Source: Deltaproteobacteria bacterium (GTDB lineage Bacteria; Bdellovibrionota_F; JAHFAK01). From it: 18,845 nt of DNA. Below the pieces are notes generated by a model. The model saw nothing but the letters and a program-made list of their open reading frames with translations. It did not search any database and was not told the origin of the DNA. The stretch spans positions 19,282 to 38,126 of the forward strand of contig JAHFAK010000007.1 in assembly GCA_023250585.1 (NCBI GenBank). The letters are read 5' to 3'. Below, piece after piece: positions 10,553 to 18,845 of this stretch (within the stretch, counting starts at the first letter, position 1; every line of letters starts with the position of its first letter). Made by a program: the position numbers and the translations under genes.

Positions 10553-10677
10553 ATACTAAGTTGCATTCAAACGCTAACTGCGTTGGCTTCGTCGTCGGCT
10601 CCTCAACGTACTCATTACGTACGTTTGCGTCGCCTTCTCCTTGCCGCCTTGTTATCATTTTGAATGCAACTTAGTAT
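10553..10677. repeat. 125-bp palindromic element, copy B (MITE-like)
   Basis: Perfect 19-bp terminal inverted repeats: ATACTAAGTTGCATTCAAA at 10553-10571 and its reverse complement at 10659-10677. The interior is nearly symmetrical about the centre (for instance CCTCAACGTA against TACGTTTGCG). The length equals copy A at 5384-5508, and the right end matches window bases 1-22 (copy C). No protein is encoded and no unambiguous target duplication is visible. It might also act as a transcription-ending hairpin behind cdd. Confidence 0.75.
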
Positions 10678-10789
10678 CAGTCGACGGTAGTGTCTATTTG
10701 CTTTTTAAAAATCCCAAACATAAATTTCCGTCAAGAAAAATAGTAGTATAAAAATTTTCTTGCCAGCTAAAGTTAAAATGTCACATTTT

Positions 10790-10807
10790 TGTTTAGATGT
10801 TCAAACA
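10790..10807. promoter_or_regulatory. Upstream activator dyad 1 (TGTTT-N8-AAACA)
   Basis: TGTTTAGATGTTCAAACA, an 18-bp dyad. Its centre is about 127 bp upstream of the GC of the sigma-54 -12 element, the same distance (within 1 bp) as the dyad in front of the second sigma-54 promoter. It is probably an enhancer-type binding site for the sigma-54 activator encoded at 17172-18596. The pattern is seen; the binding protein is inferred. Confidence 0.55.
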
Positions 10808-10820
10808 TATGAAAGAGAAA

Positions 10821-10838
10821 TGTTTCAGATGCTAAACA
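10821..10838. promoter_or_regulatory. Upstream activator dyad 2 (TGTTT-N8-AAACA)
   Basis: TGTTTCAGATGCTAAACA, 18 bp. Its centre is 31 bp downstream of dyad 1, close to three helical turns, as expected for two dimers of an NtrC-type activator binding on one DNA face. It shares 12 of 18 bases with the dyad at 18603-18620. Confidence 0.55.
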
Positions 10839-10911: not shown

Positions 10912-10928
10912 TTGGCATGAATATTGCT
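10912..10928 (+). promoter_or_regulatory. Sigma-54 promoter of the kinase/aldolase/sensor operon
   Basis: TTGGCATGAATATTGCT contains the -24 GG (10914-10915) and the -12 GC (10926-10927) with the required 12-base offset, and it agrees with the consensus TGGCAYR-N4-TTGCW. Transcription should start near 10939, leaving a leader of about 75 nt. A near-identical promoter occurs at 18724-18740, and the operon ends with a sigma-54 activator gene. Confidence 0.8.
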
Positions 10929-11015: not shown

Positions 11016-11852
11016 ATGGTAATTGGCGTAATCGGCTCGATTACGAAAGACAGAATTATTATTGATCAAACGAACGATCAGTTTGATCACGTTGGTGGGA
11101 CTGTTTATTATAGTTCACTGACGTTAGCTCATCTTGGATGTTCAGTAATTTCAATTCCACTGTTGGCTGAAAAAGATTCTTATCTTCTAAAACATTTCAA
11201 ACATGAAAATATCGCCTGTTACCCTGCGTGGACTGAAAGGACAACAGAATATGAAAATAGATACCCATCGGATTCTTACGATATATGTGAAAGAACCATC
11301 ATCGCACATGCTTCAGATTTTTCTTTGACGAATACAATACTCAAGAATCTTTCTGTCTGTAGTGCAATTCATTTAGGTCCATTAGCCCATGATGAATTTT
11401 CACCTGATACTTTTACGAAGTTACGAGAACATGTTTCGGGTATTATTGGTTTCGATGCACAGGGTTTTCTCTCTGGAGAAGAAGAGTATTTCAATGAAGT
11501 TGTACAAGGAACGATCGATATCATTAAGCTCAGTTCTCATGAATTACTATCAATAACCAAGGAAACAGATGAAGCAATGGCAGTAGAGAAACTAATAGGA
11601 TTGGGCATACATGAAATTGTTGTGACTCGAGGTTCTCAAGGTTCGACGATTTGTTACAATCAGGAACGGATTGATCTTCCTGCATCTAAGCCACAACAAA
11701 TCATCGATGCTACAGGCTGTGGAGATACGTATTTTGCCGCGTATTTGTTGAAAAGAACTGAAGGATATAGTCGAGAAGACTCTGGAAAATATGCGTCGCG
11801 AATTGCAGCCGAAAAGTTGGCATATCGTGGGCCGATTAAGGATGAAAAATAA
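11016..11852 (+). CDS. PfkB-family carbohydrate kinase
   Basis: A 278-residue ribokinase/PfkB-superfamily kinase. The first motif is present as DHVGGTVYYSSLTLAHLG (residues 24-41), then VTRGSQGS (203-210), and the catalytic and anion-hole motif DATGCGDTYFAAYL (231-244) with Asp237 as base. It would phosphorylate a sugar or nucleoside with ATP in the cytoplasm; the substrate is not deducible. A short lid with sequence unlike ribokinase points away from canonical RbsK. GGAGGA at 11005-11010 is a strong ribosome site 5 nt before the ATG. It is the first gene behind the sigma-54 promoter. Its base composition is higher in GC than the next two genes. Confidence 0.85.
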   Translation: MVIGVIGSITKDRIIIDQTNDQFDHVGGTVYYSSLTLAHLGCSVISIPLLAEKDSYLLKHFKHENIACYPAWTERTTEYENRYPSDSYDICERTIIAHASDFSLTNTILKNLSVCSAIHLGPLAHDEFSPDTFTKLREHVSGIIGFDAQGFLSGEEEYFNEVVQGTIDIIKLSSHELLSITKETDEAMAVEKLIGLGIHEIVVTRGSQGSTICYNQERIDLPASKPQQIIDATGCGDTYFAAYLLKRTEGYSREDSGKYASRIAAEKLAYRGPIKDEK

Positions 11853-12062
11853 GATAGATAGTAGTAAAGCAGCAGGAGAAGAAAGGTGCAACGAAATCAA
11901 ATTAAGCAGAGATTATTAGTAATAACTATTTTGTATTTTCTTATTGCTTTGTCAGAAACAAATCTCCCTGCGAATCAAAAATTGAGATGTACAAATATTT
12001 TTGAAACAAAAATTAAAGGATATTTTAATACAATGGCCAAAGCACTCCTAGAAAGGAAACGT

Positions 12063-12719
12063 ATGAAAGAAGAGCAAATGTTAATAAATAAAAAAGTTAC
12101 AGATATGATCGCCATTGGAAAAACTTTCTATGATAAAAATTGGCTTTTGGGTACATCGGGAAATTTATCCTCACTTATTTCAAGAGATCCTCTCCGATTT
12201 ATTATAACAGCAAGTGGTATGGATAAAGGTACTTTAATTAAAGATGCATTTGTTGAAGTTATTGGTGAAAATAATGGATCCTATCAAGTAACCAAAAATA
12301 CAAGCAAAAAGCCATCAGGAGAAACATTACTTCACAAAGTTATTTACCAATATACCGATGCTGAAACAATTATTCATATACACTCGAGCGAAGCTGTGTT
12401 CGTAGCAGAATTATTTGCCAACAAGGGAATCTTTACGTTTCAGGGATATGAAGTACAAAAAGGTCTAGGGTTTAAAAATATCTGCGAAGAGTGTAGAATC
12501 CCAATACTTGAGAATAAAGAAAATCTTCACGAGTTAGCAAATGAATTTATTTCACGTTGGGAACCATCTCAAATAGCGTTTCTCATCAAAAATCATGGGC
12601 TTTTTGTTTGGGGACGATCTCTTTCGGAAGCAAAGAGGTGTACAGAATTATTGCAACACATGTTTGAATATTCTATTTTGAAAAAAAATTCTGAGGTAAA
12701 AGATAAATATGAATTCTAG
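12063..12719 (+). CDS. Class II aldolase/adducin-family enzyme, MtnB-like
   Basis: A 218-residue zinc enzyme of the class II aldolase/adducin family. WLLGTSGNLSS, GMDKGTL, KPSGETLLH (Glu87), IHIHSSEA (zinc His105 and His107), FQGYEVQKGLG and LIKNHGLFVWGRSLSEAKR (zinc His178) resemble methylthioribulose-1-phosphate dehydratase (MtnB) more than fuculose-phosphate aldolase. It would act on a phosphorylated ketose, such as an isomerised product of the upstream kinase. The start at 12063 has AAAGGA 5 nt upstream and fits the family length. A GTG at 11886 with its own AGGAG would add 59 residues including a hydrophobic run, as if exported. It overlaps the binding-protein gene by 11 bp. The substrate is uncertain. 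Confidence 0.8.
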   Translation: MKEEQMLINKKVTDMIAIGKTFYDKNWLLGTSGNLSSLISRDPLRFIITASGMDKGTLIKDAFVEVIGENNGSYQVTKNTSKKPSGETLLHKVIYQYTDAETIIHIHSSEAVFVAELFANKGIFTFQGYEVQKGLGFKNICEECRIPILENKENLHELANEFISRWEPSQIAFLIKNHGLFVWGRSLSEAKRCTELLQHMFEYSILKKNSEVKDKYEF

Positions 12720-14112
12720 AAAATATATGTTTTTAATCCTGATTATTTTTATATTTAACATACATATGACCGATACTGGATATTGTTGGAGTTTATCTAA
12801 AGCTTCTAAACCATATAAAGGTCAAACTATAACAATCTCATTAATGATTGGGTATGAGGTCAATAAAATTTTGTTGGATAAAGTTATTCCTGAGTTTAAG
12901 AAAAAAACAGGAATTAATGTTGAAGTTCAATTCGTTCCGTATCAAGAAGTTATACCACAACATACGAGAATACTAAAATCTAAGGATTCTAAGTATGATC
13001 TTATTAATGTGGATAATATTTGGTTTCCATTTTACAAGCCTTATCTAGAAAATATTGATCAATTTATTAAAGATTCAAAATTATCGATGCCAAAGTTTAA
13101 TATTTCAGATTTTATTCCAGAATTACTACAGGGGTACCAATGGGAAGAAAATACATACTGTTTCCCATCAACATTTGAGTTCCCTCTTTTAATGGTAAGA
13201 AAGGACTTATTTAAAAAAGCTGACTTCATTGATAAGAATGGAAAGATTATACCACCAAAAAATCTGGATGAATATTATGAATATGCCAAAAAATTAACTC
13301 AAGATATAGATAACGATGGAAAAATTGATGTTTATGGGACAACACTCCATGGCTATAAAACAGGAATTTTTGATGAAGCCATAAGTTGGTATTGGGGTTC
13401 AGGTGGAGAACTTCTTGATAAATCTTTGAACCCAATATTTGGTAATGCTCTACTAATTAAAACCATGAAGATATATAGTAATATCTATCATCATGGGTAT
13501 GCTTCTCCAGAAAGTACAGCATGGGAACTTGGGGAAGCAGCAACTGCATTTAGAACAGGCAAAGCCGCCATGTCTTGGAATTGGACTATGGTTGCACCAT
13601 GGGTACTTGATCCTAAGCTATCTTATGTAGCAGATAAAGTAGAGTTCATTAAGCTCTTTAAGGAAGATACAAAAAGAGTTCATTATTTGAGAGAAGCTTC
13701 AAATGCATTATGTATTCCAAAGAATTCTAATAATAAGAAAGCAGCCTTTTTGTTCATGCAGTTCTATACAAGTCCTGTTATTCAAGAAACTTATGTGTCT
13801 GATCAGTATCGAATTCATCCTTCAAGGAAGTCCATAATTTTCTCCGGAAAATATGCATCTCAGGTTCCATATGCAACTATACAACGCGATGTGATTAAAA
13901 ATCATGAAATTAGGCTTTGCCCTAAAATCCCTGAGTACACTGACATTGATCAAATTGTTGCGATGAGATTTCAACAAATAATGACAGGAGATTTATCTGC
14001 ACAGATTGGTATTGAACAAGCAGTCGTTGATGTTCAGAAGTTATTAAGTCAAGGTAACTATTATGAAGGTAACAAAAGTTATACACCGATCTTTTCTGGT
14101 ATTTACAAATAA
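12709..14112 (+). CDS. Extracellular sugar-type solute-binding protein (family 1)
   Basis: A 467-residue protein with a signal peptide (basic start, hydrophobic residues about 6-18, cleavage probably around residue 26). It is followed by a family 1 solute-binding fold: TITISLMIGYEVNKILLDKV, FKKKTGINVEVQFVPY, YDLINVDNIWFPFY, and a domain-2 region with GEAATAFRTGKAAMSWNW and AFLFMQFYTSP. DIDNDGKIDVYG is a calcium-loop-like insertion seen in some sugar-binding proteins. Such proteins bind oligosaccharides or polyols in the periplasm and normally serve an ABC importer, but no permease or ATPase is encoded nearby. It overlaps the sensor-kinase gene by 50 bp. A sensory role is inferred from that pairing. 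Its codons are markedly AT-rich. Confidence 0.88.
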   Translation: MNSRKYMFLILIIFIFNIHMTDTGYCWSLSKASKPYKGQTITISLMIGYEVNKILLDKVIPEFKKKTGINVEVQFVPYQEVIPQHTRILKSKDSKYDLINVDNIWFPFYKPYLENIDQFIKDSKLSMPKFNISDFIPELLQGYQWEENTYCFPSTFEFPLLMVRKDLFKKADFIDKNGKIIPPKNLDEYYEYAKKLTQDIDNDGKIDVYGTTLHGYKTGIFDEAISWYWGSGGELLDKSLNPIFGNALLIKTMKIYSNIYHHGYASPESTAWELGEAATAFRTGKAAMSWNWTMVAPWVLDPKLSYVADKVEFIKLFKEDTKRVHYLREASNALCIPKNSNNKKAAFLFMQFYTSPVIQETYVSDQYRIHPSRKSIIFSGKYASQVPYATIQRDVIKNHEIRLCPKIPEYTDIDQIVAMRFQQIMTGDLSAQIGIEQAVVDVQKLLSQGNYYEGNKSYTPIFSGIYK

Positions 14113-17100
14113 ATTACGAACAAATTTTTATAGCAAGTTGTTATTGAGTATTATTTGTTTTTCTTTAATACCAACATTATTGTTGATACTAATAGTTTGC
14201 TGTATTTATTCTACTAAATATAATTATGAACTCGAACGTTATTCAATGACTTCTTTACAATTAGTAAGAAGCAATATCCGCACTTATCTTGATAAAGCTC
14301 TTGGAGAAGCCCTTGTTATTGCAAAAATGCAATCAATTAATAATGCTATCTTAAATAGAAAAATAGATGAACTTCAAATGCTTACGTTCGAACTTAAATC
14401 AGCCATCAACGCTGATTTACTTATTATAACAGATGATAATGGTAAAGTTATTACTCAAGCTAAAGATGTACAGAAATATTTACGTTTAATTCTTAGCGAG
14501 AAAAATTTTTCTAAGATTATCATAGAAAATAAGTTTAATAAAGAAATCATTGAAAATGATGATGAAGTATTATTAGTAGCAACGGTTCCTGTATTTAATT
14601 GGGTTGCAAATGGTACAATAACCGTTGGGTACAGACTTAATAAAGAAAGATTAAGCTTAGTCAAAGATTTTCTAGGTTTGGATATTATACTTTTACATAA
14701 AGATGGATCACATAAACATACCTATAGTAATAGTAACTCTGGGATTCAAAAAGTTATTAAACTTCTTATATCAATGAGAGGTATAAATGAAAATAGAACA
14801 CGTTTTTTTAGAGAAAAAGTAAATAATGAATTACAGCAATTTATTGTAGCTCCTCTCAGTGAATCTTCTAAGAAAACTATTATAGCTGTGAGTTCACCAA
14901 TACGATCTTGGTATATTGAATTTTTACAGTTTCAATATACCTTTATTGTACTAATCATTGTTCTAATAATCTCTCTCATCTTTTCTGCGTATAAGTGGGG
15001 AAGAAAAATAACAAAACCATTATATGCAATTTTAGATATTGCTAAACAGGAGAATGAGTTAGACAGTTGTTTTAAAGAAGATGACTTATATACATTAGAT
15101 GAATTTGAAAAGATTGGATATGCTTTTAAAAGGATGGCAAAAAAGATTAAACAACAATCCCGTCTTGCCGCGATAGGCAGCACAACAGCAATCCTAGCTC
15201 ATGATGTGCGTAAGCCGTTCACGAAACTCAAAGCATTGCTCAATTATTTTGATGAATACAAACAATCACCGGTAAAGCTTGAGAATGCGAAGCAAGAAAT
15301 AGAGAAGTCTATTAAGCAAGTTGAGAGCATGATCAATGACATCATGGATTTCTCACGAGAAGTAAAACTTGAGACCAAGCCTGTGCCGCTTGTTCAGCTG
15401 TTTGATTTTTCTATTCGACAGATAACACAAGGGCATGATGAGAGTCTGATTATGTTTGAATATAATGTGAGTCATAGTAAAAAGCCTCGTGTTGATGATG
15501 AGCGAATGTCGCGAGTATTTTCGAATATTATAGGCAATGGCATTGAAGCGATCACGGTTATAGGGAAGAAGAATACGGGAACGATTACGATAACAACAAA
15601 AGATATTCAAAGAGAAGATACGTCATTCATTGAGATAACAATAGCCAATGATGGACCTTTGTTCAAAGAAGAAGATATTCCCAATTTATTTGAGTCATTT
15701 TTCACAAAAGGTAAACGAAAGGGAACAGGACTTGGGCTTGCATCAGCACAAAAGATTATCAATTTACACGGTGGCACTATTACTGCCCACAATAAATCTC
15801 ATGATACAGGAGTAGAGTTTGTAATGACAGTACCTGCATCGGATGAGAAAGAAAGAATAGATCTGACTATACTACCGAAGAATAGCAAAGAAGCAGCGTT
15901 TATAGAATTAAAGAAAGACACACGAGAACTTGATCGAATCATTGAGACAATACAGAATAAGCGATTCAAGATATTACTTTTAGAAGACGAGGCATTGTAT
16001 CGGAGCGCAGTAAAGAGCATGATACAAAAGGATGAAACCCTTCGCAATATCATTACTCTGTATGATGCGCATACGGTGGATGAGGCATTAGAGATAGTAG
16101 AGAAAGAAAATATCTCTCATGCAATAGTTGATATTGATTTAGGTGATGTACAAAACGGCTTTGATTTTCTTGTATATCTTTCCCAAAACCTAAAAACGAA
16201 AAACCAAAAACTATCATGCATGATTCATTCTAATCGCCATTTAGATGAATTCCGGCAAAAGGCATTTTCATTAGGAGCAAAAGCATTTGTTCCTAAGCCT
16301 TTGGCGTTAGAACATTTGGTGGATTTTCTATCGGTTAGCGGCTTGCCCTGCGTAGCACCTGACCTTCATAGCTCTCCGAGCGAAGTAGGTTTGGCAAAGC
16401 AGGCTGATGGGTCAGAGGTTAGCGTCGTAGAAGAAACACGCAAACCGTTAACCGAAAACCACAAGCCAAGAATCCTTGTTATCGATGATGATCCAATACT
16501 ACTGAAAGTAACGGGAGATATTGTTGGACGTACATTTTACGGTGCTACCGTACTTGAAGCGAAAAGCCCAGAACAAGCAATGGACATGCTTCATGACCAA
16601 CAATTCGATTACATCTTGTGCGATATCAATTTCGATAATAGTCCTATGAATGGCTATGAGTTTGTTCATACACTACGAAAGGATACTCCAGGATCAAAGA
16701 TATATCTCGTATCATCGACACCTACTGAATTAGCGTATGATGAAGCAATGCGAGCTGGAGCAGATGGATATATAGAACAGCCAATATCGAAAGAGAAGAT
16801 ACGGACGCTGAGTAGTATTTTTCCTTATGCTCTCCGAACTACGGAGATAGAAAAAGCACGAGCACCTAAAACCCAAAATCTCAAACCGAATCTTCTTCTG
16901 TGTCGTGTCTTTCATGATATGAAGAAACTGCACCTGTTCATGGATAGTTTTATACGAGAATCACAAGGAGAGAATTTGAATGAGTGGAAAGAATTATTGA
17001 AACTTTATGGGGATTATTCATTACGAGTTACGAATCTGTTTCGAGAGTATTTACGAAAGCGTGAAGTAATAATAGATGATGAGGCATTAATGAAAAAGCT

Positions 17101-17200
17101 TAATGCCGAAGCGAAAGCATTGAAAGAAGGGCTTGAGCATGTAATGCTACGAGCCAATACGGAAGGAACCTATGAAGCATCAGAATTTACTCATTGTTGA
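14063..17200 (+). CDS. Hybrid sensor histidine kinase with two receiver domains
   Basis: A 1045-residue membrane kinase. TM1 is at about residues 26-50, an extracytoplasmic Cache-like sensor at 51-288 and TM2 at 292-312, followed by a short HAMP-like linker. The DHp domain has AHDVRKP (His380). The ATPase has N-box NIIGNGIEA (488-496) and GTGLGLA (from Gly554). Receiver 1 runs 634-755 (Glu641, Asp642, phospho-Asp690, Lys745). Receiver 2 runs 801-920 (Asp808-810, phospho-Asp854), but Gln906 stands where the conserved Lys is expected. A helical C-terminal domain from about 935 carries FHDMKKLHLF (His951). It overlaps its neighbours on both sides (50 bp, 29 bp). Base composition shifts near 15150. 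It presumably phosphorylates the next gene's product. Confidence 0.9.
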   Translation: MKVTKVIHRSFLVFTNKLRTNFYSKLLLSIICFSLIPTLLLILIVCCIYSTKYNYELERYSMTSLQLVRSNIRTYLDKALGEALVIAKMQSINNAILNRKIDELQMLTFELKSAINADLLIITDDNGKVITQAKDVQKYLRLILSEKNFSKIIIENKFNKEIIENDDEVLLVATVPVFNWVANGTITVGYRLNKERLSLVKDFLGLDIILLHKDGSHKHTYSNSNSGIQKVIKLLISMRGINENRTRFFREKVNNELQQFIVAPLSESSKKTIIAVSSPIRSWYIEFLQFQYTFIVLIIVLIISLIFSAYKWGRKITKPLYAILDIAKQENELDSCFKEDDLYTLDEFEKIGYAFKRMAKKIKQQSRLAAIGSTTAILAHDVRKPFTKLKALLNYFDEYKQSPVKLENAKQEIEKSIKQVESMINDIMDFSREVKLETKPVPLVQLFDFSIRQITQGHDESLIMFEYNVSHSKKPRVDDERMSRVFSNIIGNGIEAITVIGKKNTGTITITTKDIQREDTSFIEITIANDGPLFKEEDIPNLFESFFTKGKRKGTGLGLASAQKIINLHGGTITAHNKSHDTGVEFVMTVPASDEKERIDLTILPKNSKEAAFIELKKDTRELDRIIETIQNKRFKILLLEDEALYRSAVKSMIQKDETLRNIITLYDAHTVDEALEIVEKENISHAIVDIDLGDVQNGFDFLVYLSQNLKTKNQKLSCMIHSNRHLDEFRQKAFSLGAKAFVPKPLALEHLVDFLSVSGLPCVAPDLHSSPSEVGLAKQADGSEVSVVEETRKPLTENHKPRILVIDDDPILLKVTGDIVGRTFYGATVLEAKSPEQAMDMLHDQQFDYILCDINFDNSPMNGYEFVHTLRKDTPGSKIYLVSSTPTELAYDEAMRAGADGYIEQPISKEKIRTLSSIFPYALRTTEIEKARAPKTQNLKPNLLLCRVFHDMKKLHLFMDSFIRESQGENLNEWKELLKLYGDYSLRVTNLFREYLRKREVIIDDEALMKKLNAEAKALKEGLEHVMLRANTEGTYEASEFTHC
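16363..16389. repeat. Palindromic repeat inside the kinase coding sequence
   Basis: A hairpin unit of the form CCTTCATAGCTC-tcc-GAGCGAAGTAGG (one 3-nt bulge) is translated as part of the linker between the two receiver domains. It resembles the intergenic unit at 2011-2036 (CCCTCCGTAGCC-tt-GGCGAAGGAGGG), with TAGC...GCGAAG-AGG in common. It may mark an in-frame insertion of a dispersed palindrome into a tolerant protein linker. Confidence 0.5.
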
Positions 17201-18596
17201 TGATGAGGTACAAATGAGACAGGAAATTAAGACAGTATTGAGTTCACATTTTACTCTTTATGAAGCATCCGATAGTAATCGAGCGATACAGCTTGTCGAA
17301 GAGAAAGAGATTGATATTGTGCTTTTGGATATATGGCTTGGAGATGAGGTCAATGGCATAGAAACTCTCGGAAAGATACAACGACTCGATAGGGATATTG
17401 AAGTAATCATGATATCGAGCGATGATTCACTGGATCTCATAAATCAATGTGTTGATAGGGGGGTATATACGTATATTAAAAAACCGATTCAGAAAGATGA
17501 ATTACTGATTGCAACACATATAAGTAAGAAGATACGTCAGAAGATCTATGAGTGTCGTATTAACGAAGATCTACATCGAATGCATGAAATATCGCCGGAA
17601 GAACTCGTTGGAAAAAGTAAGACAATCGAAGGCGCAAATCGCGCAATTATGCAATTAGGGAAATATCACACTATAACAATACTCATTCGAGGAGAAAGCG
17701 GTACAGGCAAAGAGCTGGTAGCCCGAGCGCTTCATAAGGAATATGGGAATAATAATCGGCCCTTTGTTGCAGTTAATTGTGGGGCATTATCTCCGAGTTT
17801 AATGGAGAGTGAATTATTTGGGCATGAAAAAGGTTCATTTACAGGAGCAGATCGGCGAAAGCTTGGGATTTTTGAATTAGGAAATGGTGGGGATATATTT
17901 TTAGATGAGATAGCGGAATTGCCCATTGATTGCCAGGCAAAACTCTTACGCGTACTTGACGGGAGTGGATTTATGCGGGTTGGTGGGAGTCGATTACTTT
18001 TTTCTGATTTTCGACTCATCCTTGCAACGAATAAAAACCTGGAAGAAATGGTTCTTGTAGAGAAGTTTCGTGAAGATTTATATCATCGAATAAATGCGCA
18101 TACGATTTATTTACCACCACTTAGAGAGCGCATTGAAGATATAGGAATGCTTTGTGAGTATCTTTTACAAAAGATTTGCAAGAGATTACGAATAAGTCCC
18201 AAACAATGTTCAGAGAAAGTTATTGCCTATTTTGAAAAACTTTCGTGGAAGGGAAATGTCCGAGAGCTCAGGAATATGCTTGAGAATATGGCGGTCAATG
18301 CATCGAGTAATATCTTAGAAGCTCATGATTTACAAAGTCTTGAGGTTGATAGCTTAGTCACTCAAAGATCCCAGGACACAAGAACCCAAACCTTGGCACA
18401 ACAAAGTGGCATTGGTTTAAGTCTGTATAAAGCATCACAAGCCGAAGGGTTATCACATGCACTTGATCATTTTGAAAAGGAAGCTCTTTCATTTGCCATT
18501 CAATCACATGATCAATTAACTCAGGTTGCAAAAACCATGAAGATGTCGAGAACAACACTTTTTCTGAAAATGAAGAAGTATAATTTGATGTCATAG
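17172..18596 (+). CDS. NtrC-family sigma-54-dependent response regulator
   Basis: A 474-residue activator with three domains. The receiver occupies residues 1-120 (acidic Asp10, Asp11, Glu12; phospho-Asp53; Ser82/83; Lys104). The AAA+ sigma-54 interaction domain has Walker A GESGTGK (174-180), GSFTGA (221-226, the sigma-54 contact loop, a variant of GAFTGA) and Walker B DIFLDE (241-246), then ILATNKNLEE and FREDLYHRINAHTIYLPPLRER. A Fis-type helix-turn-helix ends the protein (QLTQVAKTMKMSRTTLFLKM). All parts are intact. AAGGAA 4 nt upstream sets the start, which overlaps the kinase gene by 29 bp. Likely targets are the two sigma-54 promoters in this window, through the TGTTY-N8-AAACA dyads. 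Confidence 0.95.
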   Translation: MKHQNLLIVDDEVQMRQEIKTVLSSHFTLYEASDSNRAIQLVEEKEIDIVLLDIWLGDEVNGIETLGKIQRLDRDIEVIMISSDDSLDLINQCVDRGVYTYIKKPIQKDELLIATHISKKIRQKIYECRINEDLHRMHEISPEELVGKSKTIEGANRAIMQLGKYHTITILIRGESGTGKELVARALHKEYGNNNRPFVAVNCGALSPSLMESELFGHEKGSFTGADRRKLGIFELGNGGDIFLDEIAELPIDCQAKLLRVLDGSGFMRVGGSRLLFSDFRLILATNKNLEEMVLVEKFREDLYHRINAHTIYLPPLRERIEDIGMLCEYLLQKICKRLRISPKQCSEKVIAYFEKLSWKGNVRELRNMLENMAVNASSNILEAHDLQSLEVDSLVTQRSQDTRTQTLAQQSGIGLSLYKASQAEGLSHALDHFEKEALSFAIQSHDQLTQVAKTMKMSRTTLFLKMKKYNLMS

Positions 18597-18602
18597 AATC
18601 AA

Positions 18603-18620
18603 TGTTCGAGAAATGAAACA
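18603..18620. promoter_or_regulatory. Upstream activator dyad at the second sigma-54 promoter
   Basis: TGTTCGAGAAATGAAACA, 18 bp, matching 12 of 18 bases of the dyad at 10821-10838. Its centre is about 127 bp from the GC of the -12 element, the same offset as dyad 1 at the operon promoter. A weak half-site (GTTCA at 18635-18639) lies where the second dyad would be expected. Confidence 0.5.
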
Positions 18621-18723: not shown

Positions 18724-18740
18724 TTGGCATGGATCTTGCT
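18724..18740 (+). promoter_or_regulatory. Sigma-54 promoter of the gene at 18788
   Basis: TTGGCATGGATCTTGCT has the -24 GG (18726-18727) and -12 GC (18738-18739) at the canonical offset and differs from the promoter at 10912-10928 at only two positions. The start site should be near 18751, giving a leader of about 37 nt ending in AGGAGG (18775-18780), 7 nt before the ATG. Confidence 0.8.
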
Positions 18741-18787: not shown

Positions 18788-18845
18788 ATGAAGCGAGCAT
18801 TTATCACGGAACATGGGCCATTGGTACGAAGGCTATCAGAGTTAC
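18788..18845 (+). CDS. Start of an unidentified gene, cut by the window end
   Basis: ATG at 18788 behind a perfect AGGAGG opens a frame beginning MKRAFITEHGPLVRRLSEL that runs off the window. Nineteen residues are too few to recognise a family; there is no signal peptide in what is visible. The sigma-54 promoter and activator dyad make it the likely output gene of the two-component system just upstream. Confidence 0.6.
   Translation, partial: MKRAFITEHGPLVRRLSEL

Follow-up and report, generated by a model that had tools for sequence, protein, structure and literature searches.

How should we read an operon that encodes a transport-type solute-binding protein (SBP) beside a hybrid histidine kinase (HK), a response regulator (RR), and two sugar-type enzymes, with no transporter in view? 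Such an operon lies at the end of a 38-kb contig (C14; JAHFAK010000007.1) from a Deltaproteobacteria bacterium (GTDB lineage Bdellovibrionota_F; assembly GCA_023250585.1) whose genome is 2.24 Mb, in 164 contigs, and 97% complete. The stretch analyzed here, which we call the window, is the final 18,845 bases of that contig. A sequence-only reading of the window had already proposed a new sugar-sensing system. We put the probability at roughly two in three that the operon encodes a self-activating sensory module of three components, with the SBP acting as a co-receptor and the RR driving both its own operon and a second gene, here called X, that begins just downstream. The best reading is that it is one member of a lineage-specific set of SBP–HK–RR modules that converge on a shared output.

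A three-component operon without a permease

Five open reading frames (ORFs) on the same strand (positions 11016–18596) make up one operon, in the order that the sequence-only reading had given: a PfkB-family kinase, a class II aldolase, a family-1 SBP, a hybrid HK, and a sigma-54 RR (Table 1). The reported overlaps among the last four genes were also found, at 11 bp (aldolase and SBP), 50 bp (SBP and HK), and 29 bp (HK and RR). Rfam gave no match, and internal terminator signals do not exceed chance. This is a real, coherent three-component operon.

The SBP is probably soluble and periplasmic. Its AlphaFold2 (AF2) model (pLDDT 89, built with 22 relatives) has the complete two-lobed, MalE-like fold of family-1 sugar binders, matching 5iai with a VIA Z of 44.2 and a root-mean-square deviation of 2.3 over 392 residues, and maltose-bound MalE3 with a VIA Z of 44. 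The nearest solved relatives (5iai, 4rya [sorbitol], 5ci5, and MalE3) bind carbohydrates; no NCBIfam model matched. Judging from the model, the ligand may be a sugar or polyol.

The hybrid HK has two transmembrane segments (about residues 22–53 and 283–314) that enclose an extracytoplasmic part of ∼230 residues at about 54–282, close to the large sensor predicted earlier at 51–288; a dCache_1 match to this region falls below threshold. The first receiver domain (REC1) retains the acidic pocket, Asp, Ser, and Lys, whereas in REC2 a Gln replaces the conserved Lys, as it does in a paralogue on contig C91. In both of these kinases, REC2 is followed by a conserved HD(M/L)KK segment (about residues 945–1010 in the window kinase). 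This segment looks like a DHp histidine box, which would be the second in the kinase, and is possibly a phosphotransfer domain.

The absence of an ABC permease noted by the sequence-only reading holds for the whole of contig C14, given that none of the genome's 14 BPD_transp_1 (PF00528) domains is located there (permeases were searched, ATPases were not). A transporter encoded further along the same transcript was considered as well; none is visible, and the gene that follows has a promoter to itself, although the contig end prevents final exclusion.

Sigma-54 promoters, candidate operator dyads, and a repeated gene

Both ends of the operon have a sigma-54 promoter with an upstream dyad, a newly noted arrangement suggesting autoactivation. 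Such promoters are real and common in this genome, as indicated by 35 genome-wide TGGCNNGNNNNTTGCW sites versus 2 for the reversed pattern. Three exact copies of the dyad TGTTYN8RAACA lie in the window, always upstream of the two promoters (0.17 expected, and 0 of 200 shuffles), but because the motif was derived from these same three sites, the window count alone is circular. An independent test comes from four dyads on contigs C91 and C75, which had no part in defining the motif. If up to one mismatch is allowed, a dyad precedes all six promoters (operon and X) on C14, C91, and C75, an outcome that shuffling gives for each at ∼5%–6%. The positions are −123 and −124 for the C91 operon and X promoters, and −69 and −89, and −113, for those of C75. 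Most other sigma-54 promoters are without a dyad. A candidate dyad on C117 was rejected as a poly-T, chance-type match.

Many perfect sigma-54 promoters precede lipoprotein-like gene starts (loci L041, L047, L051, L053, L055, L062, and L064), suggesting a putative sigma-54-controlled surface regulon.

Gene X is present in five near-identical copies, all of them at contig ends (that of C14 and, in loci L045, L046, L049, and L056, those of C54, C64, C75, and C91), which explains the assembly breaks at these places. The repeat begins exactly at the −24 element of a sigma-54 promoter, and the promoters are identical or similar among copies. X adjoins four HK–RR loci, and the dyad is common to three of them. 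It has a ribosome-binding site and looks protein-coding, and has no convincing Pfam match in either frame. The longest X peptide (36 residues) aligns with the part before the P-loop in the AAA+ domain of the C64 regulator, with a score of 57 compared with a maximum of 43 in 500 shuffles. X may thus encode a receiver-less sigma-54 activator; the assignment to AAA+ rests on a short alignment, and the body of X is not in the assembly.

Table 1. Genes, promoters, and candidate operators of the operon and its flanks (window coordinates)
Feature	Position	Strand	Description
Candidate RR operator dyad TGTTTAGATGTTCAAACA	10790..10807	+	−123 from the operon sigma-54 promoter
Second candidate operator dyad TGTTTCAGATGCTAAACA	10821..10838	+	−92; 31 bp from the first dyad
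Sigma-54 promoter of the operon TGGCATGAATATTGCT	10913..10928	+	Perfect match
PfkB-family kinase	11016..11852	+	PF00294; DATGCGD motif
MtnB-type class II aldolase	11886..12719	+	PF00596; TIGR03328; aq_1979 and APIP relatives
Family-1 SBP	12709..14112	+	PF01547 SBP_bac_1
Hybrid HK	14063..17200	+	Transmembrane segment, dCache-like periplasmic domain, transmembrane segment, HisKA, HATPase_c, REC1, REC2, C-terminal DHp-like HDMKK segment
NtrC-type RR	17172..18596	+	Response_reg (REC), Sigma54_activat AAA+ with GSFTGA, HTH_8 (Fis-type HTH)
Candidate operator dyad TGTTCGAGAAATGAAACA	18603..18620	+	−122 from the second promoter
Second sigma-54 promoter TGGCATGGATCTTGCT	18725..18740	+	Perfect match; identical at C91 and C54
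Start of multicopy gene X (MKRAFITEHGPLVRRLSEL...)	18788..18845	+	Cut by contig end; GGAGG Shine-Dalgarno before ATG

Related loci in the genome and beyond

The proposal that the SBP is coupled to a kinase and not to a transporter gains support from the rest of the genome. In four cases, an SBP gene directly precedes, and overlaps or abuts, a kinase gene, and each case involves a different Pfam family (SBP_bac_1 in the window, SBP_bac_5 on C91, Peripla_BP_6 on C64, and SBP_bac_3 on C101). A role for the window SBP as a co-sensor is likely. The C91 locus comprises, in order, a hydrolase, MatE, a hexapeptide transferase (acyltransferase), SBP_bac_5, a hybrid kinase, a sigma-54 regulator, the shared promoter, and X; its kinase is 75%–76% identical to that of the window in the DHp/CA and REC1 regions, with a sensor that is not detectably similar. 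On C64, a sigma-54 regulator, a methyltransferase, a short-chain dehydrogenase/reductase (SDR), the Peripla_BP_6 SBP, and an overlapping kinase are divergent from X. On C75, a radical SAM/SPASM gene with a sigma-54 promoter is accompanied by a 46-codon ORF and genes for an MFS protein, a kinase, and a regulator, and then comes X; this locus has no SBP. On C101, SBP_bac_3 and the kinase occur without X, and on C54, X lies beside a sigma-54-like promoter and an operon without a regulator. A single output thus appears to receive several different inputs, given that kinase–regulator cores related to that of the window, with operators of the same type, precede the X copies of C91 and C75, and that C64 has an SBP, HK, and RR beside X.

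The 46-codon ORF of C75 (L206 4870–5010, − strand), between the radical SAM/SPASM and MFS genes, has a good Shine-Dalgarno sequence and is a possible modified-peptide precursor.

Our sample of the phylum consists of two genomes, that of the window and a sister genome of the same class (G001). All three of the closest kinase cores in G001 have SBP_bac_5 upstream in the operon, twice in the order SBP_bac_5, radical SAM/SPASM, hybrid kinase (78% identical DNA) and once as SBP_bac_5, YcaO, hybrid kinase. No sigma-54 RR adjoins the G001 kinases in the stretches read, and the full module is therefore seen only in the window's genome. Just 5′ of the YcaO operon is a 77-codon ORF (L216 1844–2077) with a strong Shine-Dalgarno sequence, a signal-like N-terminus, and a YDSCGTHFTNER C-terminus. 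No ABC importer was seen in the related loci. Of six full-length sensor relatives from outside the phylum, two are encoded immediately after an SBP gene and overlap it (SBP_bac_5 in L086 and a phosphonate-binding protein in L088).

Close homologues of the operon were not found in the genome_contigs set (SBP query), in a sample of 59 genomes, or within the phylum, represented by its two genomes. Viral contigs scanned with the kinase gave no match, and that scan was uninformative. Distant SBP relatives were surveyed in place of close homologues, and an alignment of six SBP sequences was too diverse to be used for scanning.

Proposed mechanism and points against it

In the module that we propose, the ligand, a small molecule that is probably sugar- or polyol-like, would be bound by the SBP in the periplasm and presented by it to the extracytoplasmic domain of the kinase; the SBP would be a co-receptor, not a transport subunit. 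The kinase would phosphorylate the NtrC-type RR via its REC domains and possibly via the C-terminal DHp-like His segment. The RR would in turn bind TGTTYN8RAACA dyads ∼70–125 bp upstream of −24/−12 promoters, and so switch on the operon that encodes it, with the PfkB kinase and the MtnB-type aldolase, as well as gene X, near-identical at five places.

Several observations weigh against this proposal. The survey of the 80 nearest SBP relatives (20%–29% identity) found a MalF/G-like permease in the fetched flanks of 76, and none of the 80, all in bacterial genomes, has a kinase–regulator pair in its operon; the window SBP is therefore an exception among its relatives. The sequence-only reading had named, as evidence that would tell against it, homologous operons in which the SBP always accompanies a transporter. 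The survey does not simply amount to this, as the relatives are so distant and none is in a homologous operon. In addition, the sensor domain of the kinase folded poorly from a single sequence (pLDDT 41), and this model was not used; the X promoters of C64 and C54 are without a dyad; and the contig stops inside X, 249 bp past the end of the RR gene, so that the remainder of the X transcript is unseen.

Comparison with known systems

As proposed, the general logic would resemble that of LuxP-LuxQ-LuxU-LuxO, where a periplasmic SBP, a hybrid kinase, and a sigma-54 RR direct several inputs to repeated sigma-54-driven targets. That system differs in its SBP family, in having a separate histidine phosphotransfer (Hpt) protein, and in that the repeated target is the set of Qrr small RNAs. 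XylFII-LytS, another co-sensor system, has an SBP class, a kinase class, and an RR unlike those of the window operon. The window RR scores 269.6 against a cut-off of 800 for the LuxO equivalog model (NF041946) and 136 bits against a cut-off of 650 for the PgtA model (NF047793), so it belongs to neither by these models.

That the arrangement was not one to be recognized, as had been claimed, is too strong, because there are precedents. In Salmonella, PgtC, PgtB, and PgtA (a sensor protein, HK, and sigma-54 RR) act together in the response to phosphoglycerate (PMC11077982). The likeness, with PgtC likened by description, includes the clustering of the regulatory genes and a controlled transporter that is not an ABC importer. 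However, that transporter is PgtP, and Pgt has no kinase or aldolase genes, unlike the window operon. The pgt genes were not found near yfdC in E. coli Nissle. In Ruminiclostridium cellulolyticum, the CuaDSR locus has a family-1 SBP gene beside HK and RR genes, and this SBP, which is distinct from the transport SBP, binds the extracellular domain of the kinase (PMC10384115). CuaDSR differs in that its RR is AraC/YesN-type, its kinase is not hybrid, and its targets are an ABC importer and a phosphorylase. XylFII-LytS uses a transport-type SBP as a co-sensor, in a 2:2 complex with the kinase extracellular domain (cited in PMC10384115). The literature searched, which left most subscription journals outside its scope, contained nothing relevant on a recurrent scheme in which different SBPs and tailoring enzymes surround a constant kinase core while operator and output are shared.

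The enzymes and what the module may sense

The PfkB kinase has as its nearest full-length solved relative TM0415 (phmmer E 1.3e-12 over 3–277), which we take to be a myo-inositol kinase. The label “class II aldolase-like” stands by virtue of the PF00596 match and can be refined to MtnB type, as the protein exceeds the NCBIfam cut-off for MtnB, methylthioribulose-1-P dehydratase (TIGR03328, 166.2 vs. 137.05 bits); its best solved relative is Aquifex aq_1979. The ORF has an in-frame, 60-residue N-terminal extension (11886–12063) that is hydrophobic at residues 10–29, and candidate starts are GTG at 11886 or ATG near 12064, with a plausible ribosome-binding site at each.

The SBP fold and the enzymes make the designation “sugar-sensing” plausible, but it is unproven, and related loci in the phylum have peptide-modifying enzymes and peptide-type SBPs; nutrient sensing is therefore not the sole reading. 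Two accounts of the ligand are compatible with a co-sensor. It is quite possible, if tentative, that an external sugar or polyol is detected, imported by a transporter encoded elsewhere, and degraded by the kinase and aldolase. The carbohydrate-binding relatives of the SBP fit this, PfkB plus a class II aldolase is a usual ketose kinase/aldolase pair, and the compounds sensed by PgtCBA and CuaDSR are subsequently taken up. However, the aldolase is MtnB-type, the operon has no isomerase or dehydrogenase, and the genome's one other SBP_bac_1 importer, on C83, comes with an SBP, two permeases, and a MalK-like ATPase of its own and with maltodextrin-type neighbors that resemble a glucan phosphorylase and a glycoside hydrolase. 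The other account, which we consider rather unlikely, is communication: enzymes of the locus would make or modify a secreted small molecule (a sugar-derived compound here, modified peptides elsewhere) that is sensed by the SBP, kinase, and regulator in the manner of LuxPQ-LuxO with other signals, and with sigma-54 positive feedback. Enzymes and receptor are under one promoter, and the related loci pair the kinase core with biosynthetic, not catabolic, enzymes and lack a visible ABC importer. Examples are the radical SAM/SPASM, small ORF, and MFS genes of C75, MatE and the acyltransferase preceding SBP_bac_5 on C91, and, in G001, SBP_bac_5 with radical SAM/SPASM twice and with YcaO and the 77-codon ORF once. 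Here the precursor, product, export, and two small ORFs are all putative, the radical SAM and YcaO matches do not reach the cut-offs that NCBIfam sets for named systems, the usual role of PfkB and MtnB is in catabolism or salvage, and the RR is not a LuxO equivalog. Overall, the sugar-type fold and enzymes favor a nutrient, whereas the related loci favor a self-made signal.

Two other explanations were weighed. We consider it unlikely that the enzymes serve methionine or 5-deoxyribose salvage and that the sensor genes are merely co-transcribed. MtnB is above cut-off and an MtnA gene does occur in the genome, but it is on C126, unlinked to the operon; the PfkB kinase is not MtnK, and the operon has its own sigma-54 promoter. 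Further, acireductone dioxygenase (PF03079) was not found in the 97%-complete genome, so the full oxygen-dependent methionine salvage route is not there. (MtnA [L089 5793–7139] is 448 residues long, of which ∼100 additional C-terminal residues match no family.) Very improbable, in our view, is an orphan transport SBP that lies by chance beside two-component genes and works with a shared permease, for example that of C83. In its favor are the permeases adjoining 76 of the 80 nearest relatives, yet the SBP gene overlaps the kinase gene by 50 bp, SBP–kinase pairs recur with other SBP families, and at 1e-4 no similarity is detected between the window SBP and the C83 SBP locus.

Just 5′ of the operon regulatory region there is an inverted repeat, ATACTAAGTTGCATTCAAA / TTTGAATGCAACTTAGTAT (10553–10685, ∼95 bp between arms), that is miniature inverted-repeat transposable element (MITE)- or repetitive extragenic palindrome (REP)-like.

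Implications

The self-activating module proposed here has sister copies in the same genome in which differing SBPs or enzymes lie by one output gene, which is a hint of a circuit family for chemical sensing and possibly for chemical communication. It is doubtful, although worth stating, that the phylum uses a family of autoactivated chemical-communication modules with many inputs and one output, X, itself receiver-less-activator-like. Each locus would then have a separate set of tailoring enzymes (the kinase and MtnB-type aldolase, a methyltransferase with an SDR, or radical SAM/SPASM or YcaO alongside a gene for a small peptide), often a class-matched SBP, a hybrid kinase with a constant core and a swapped sensor, and a sigma-54 regulator, and one type of operator would be common to the modules.

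In one genome, four families of transport-type SBPs are found beside kinases, with a conserved kinase core and exchanged sensors, and the evolution of SBP co-sensors is therefore directly testable. If the enzymes do make the ligands, these would be a new class of signaling locus, with sugar- or peptide-derived signals and LuxPQ-LuxO-like logic, in a phylum that has almost no sequenced members.

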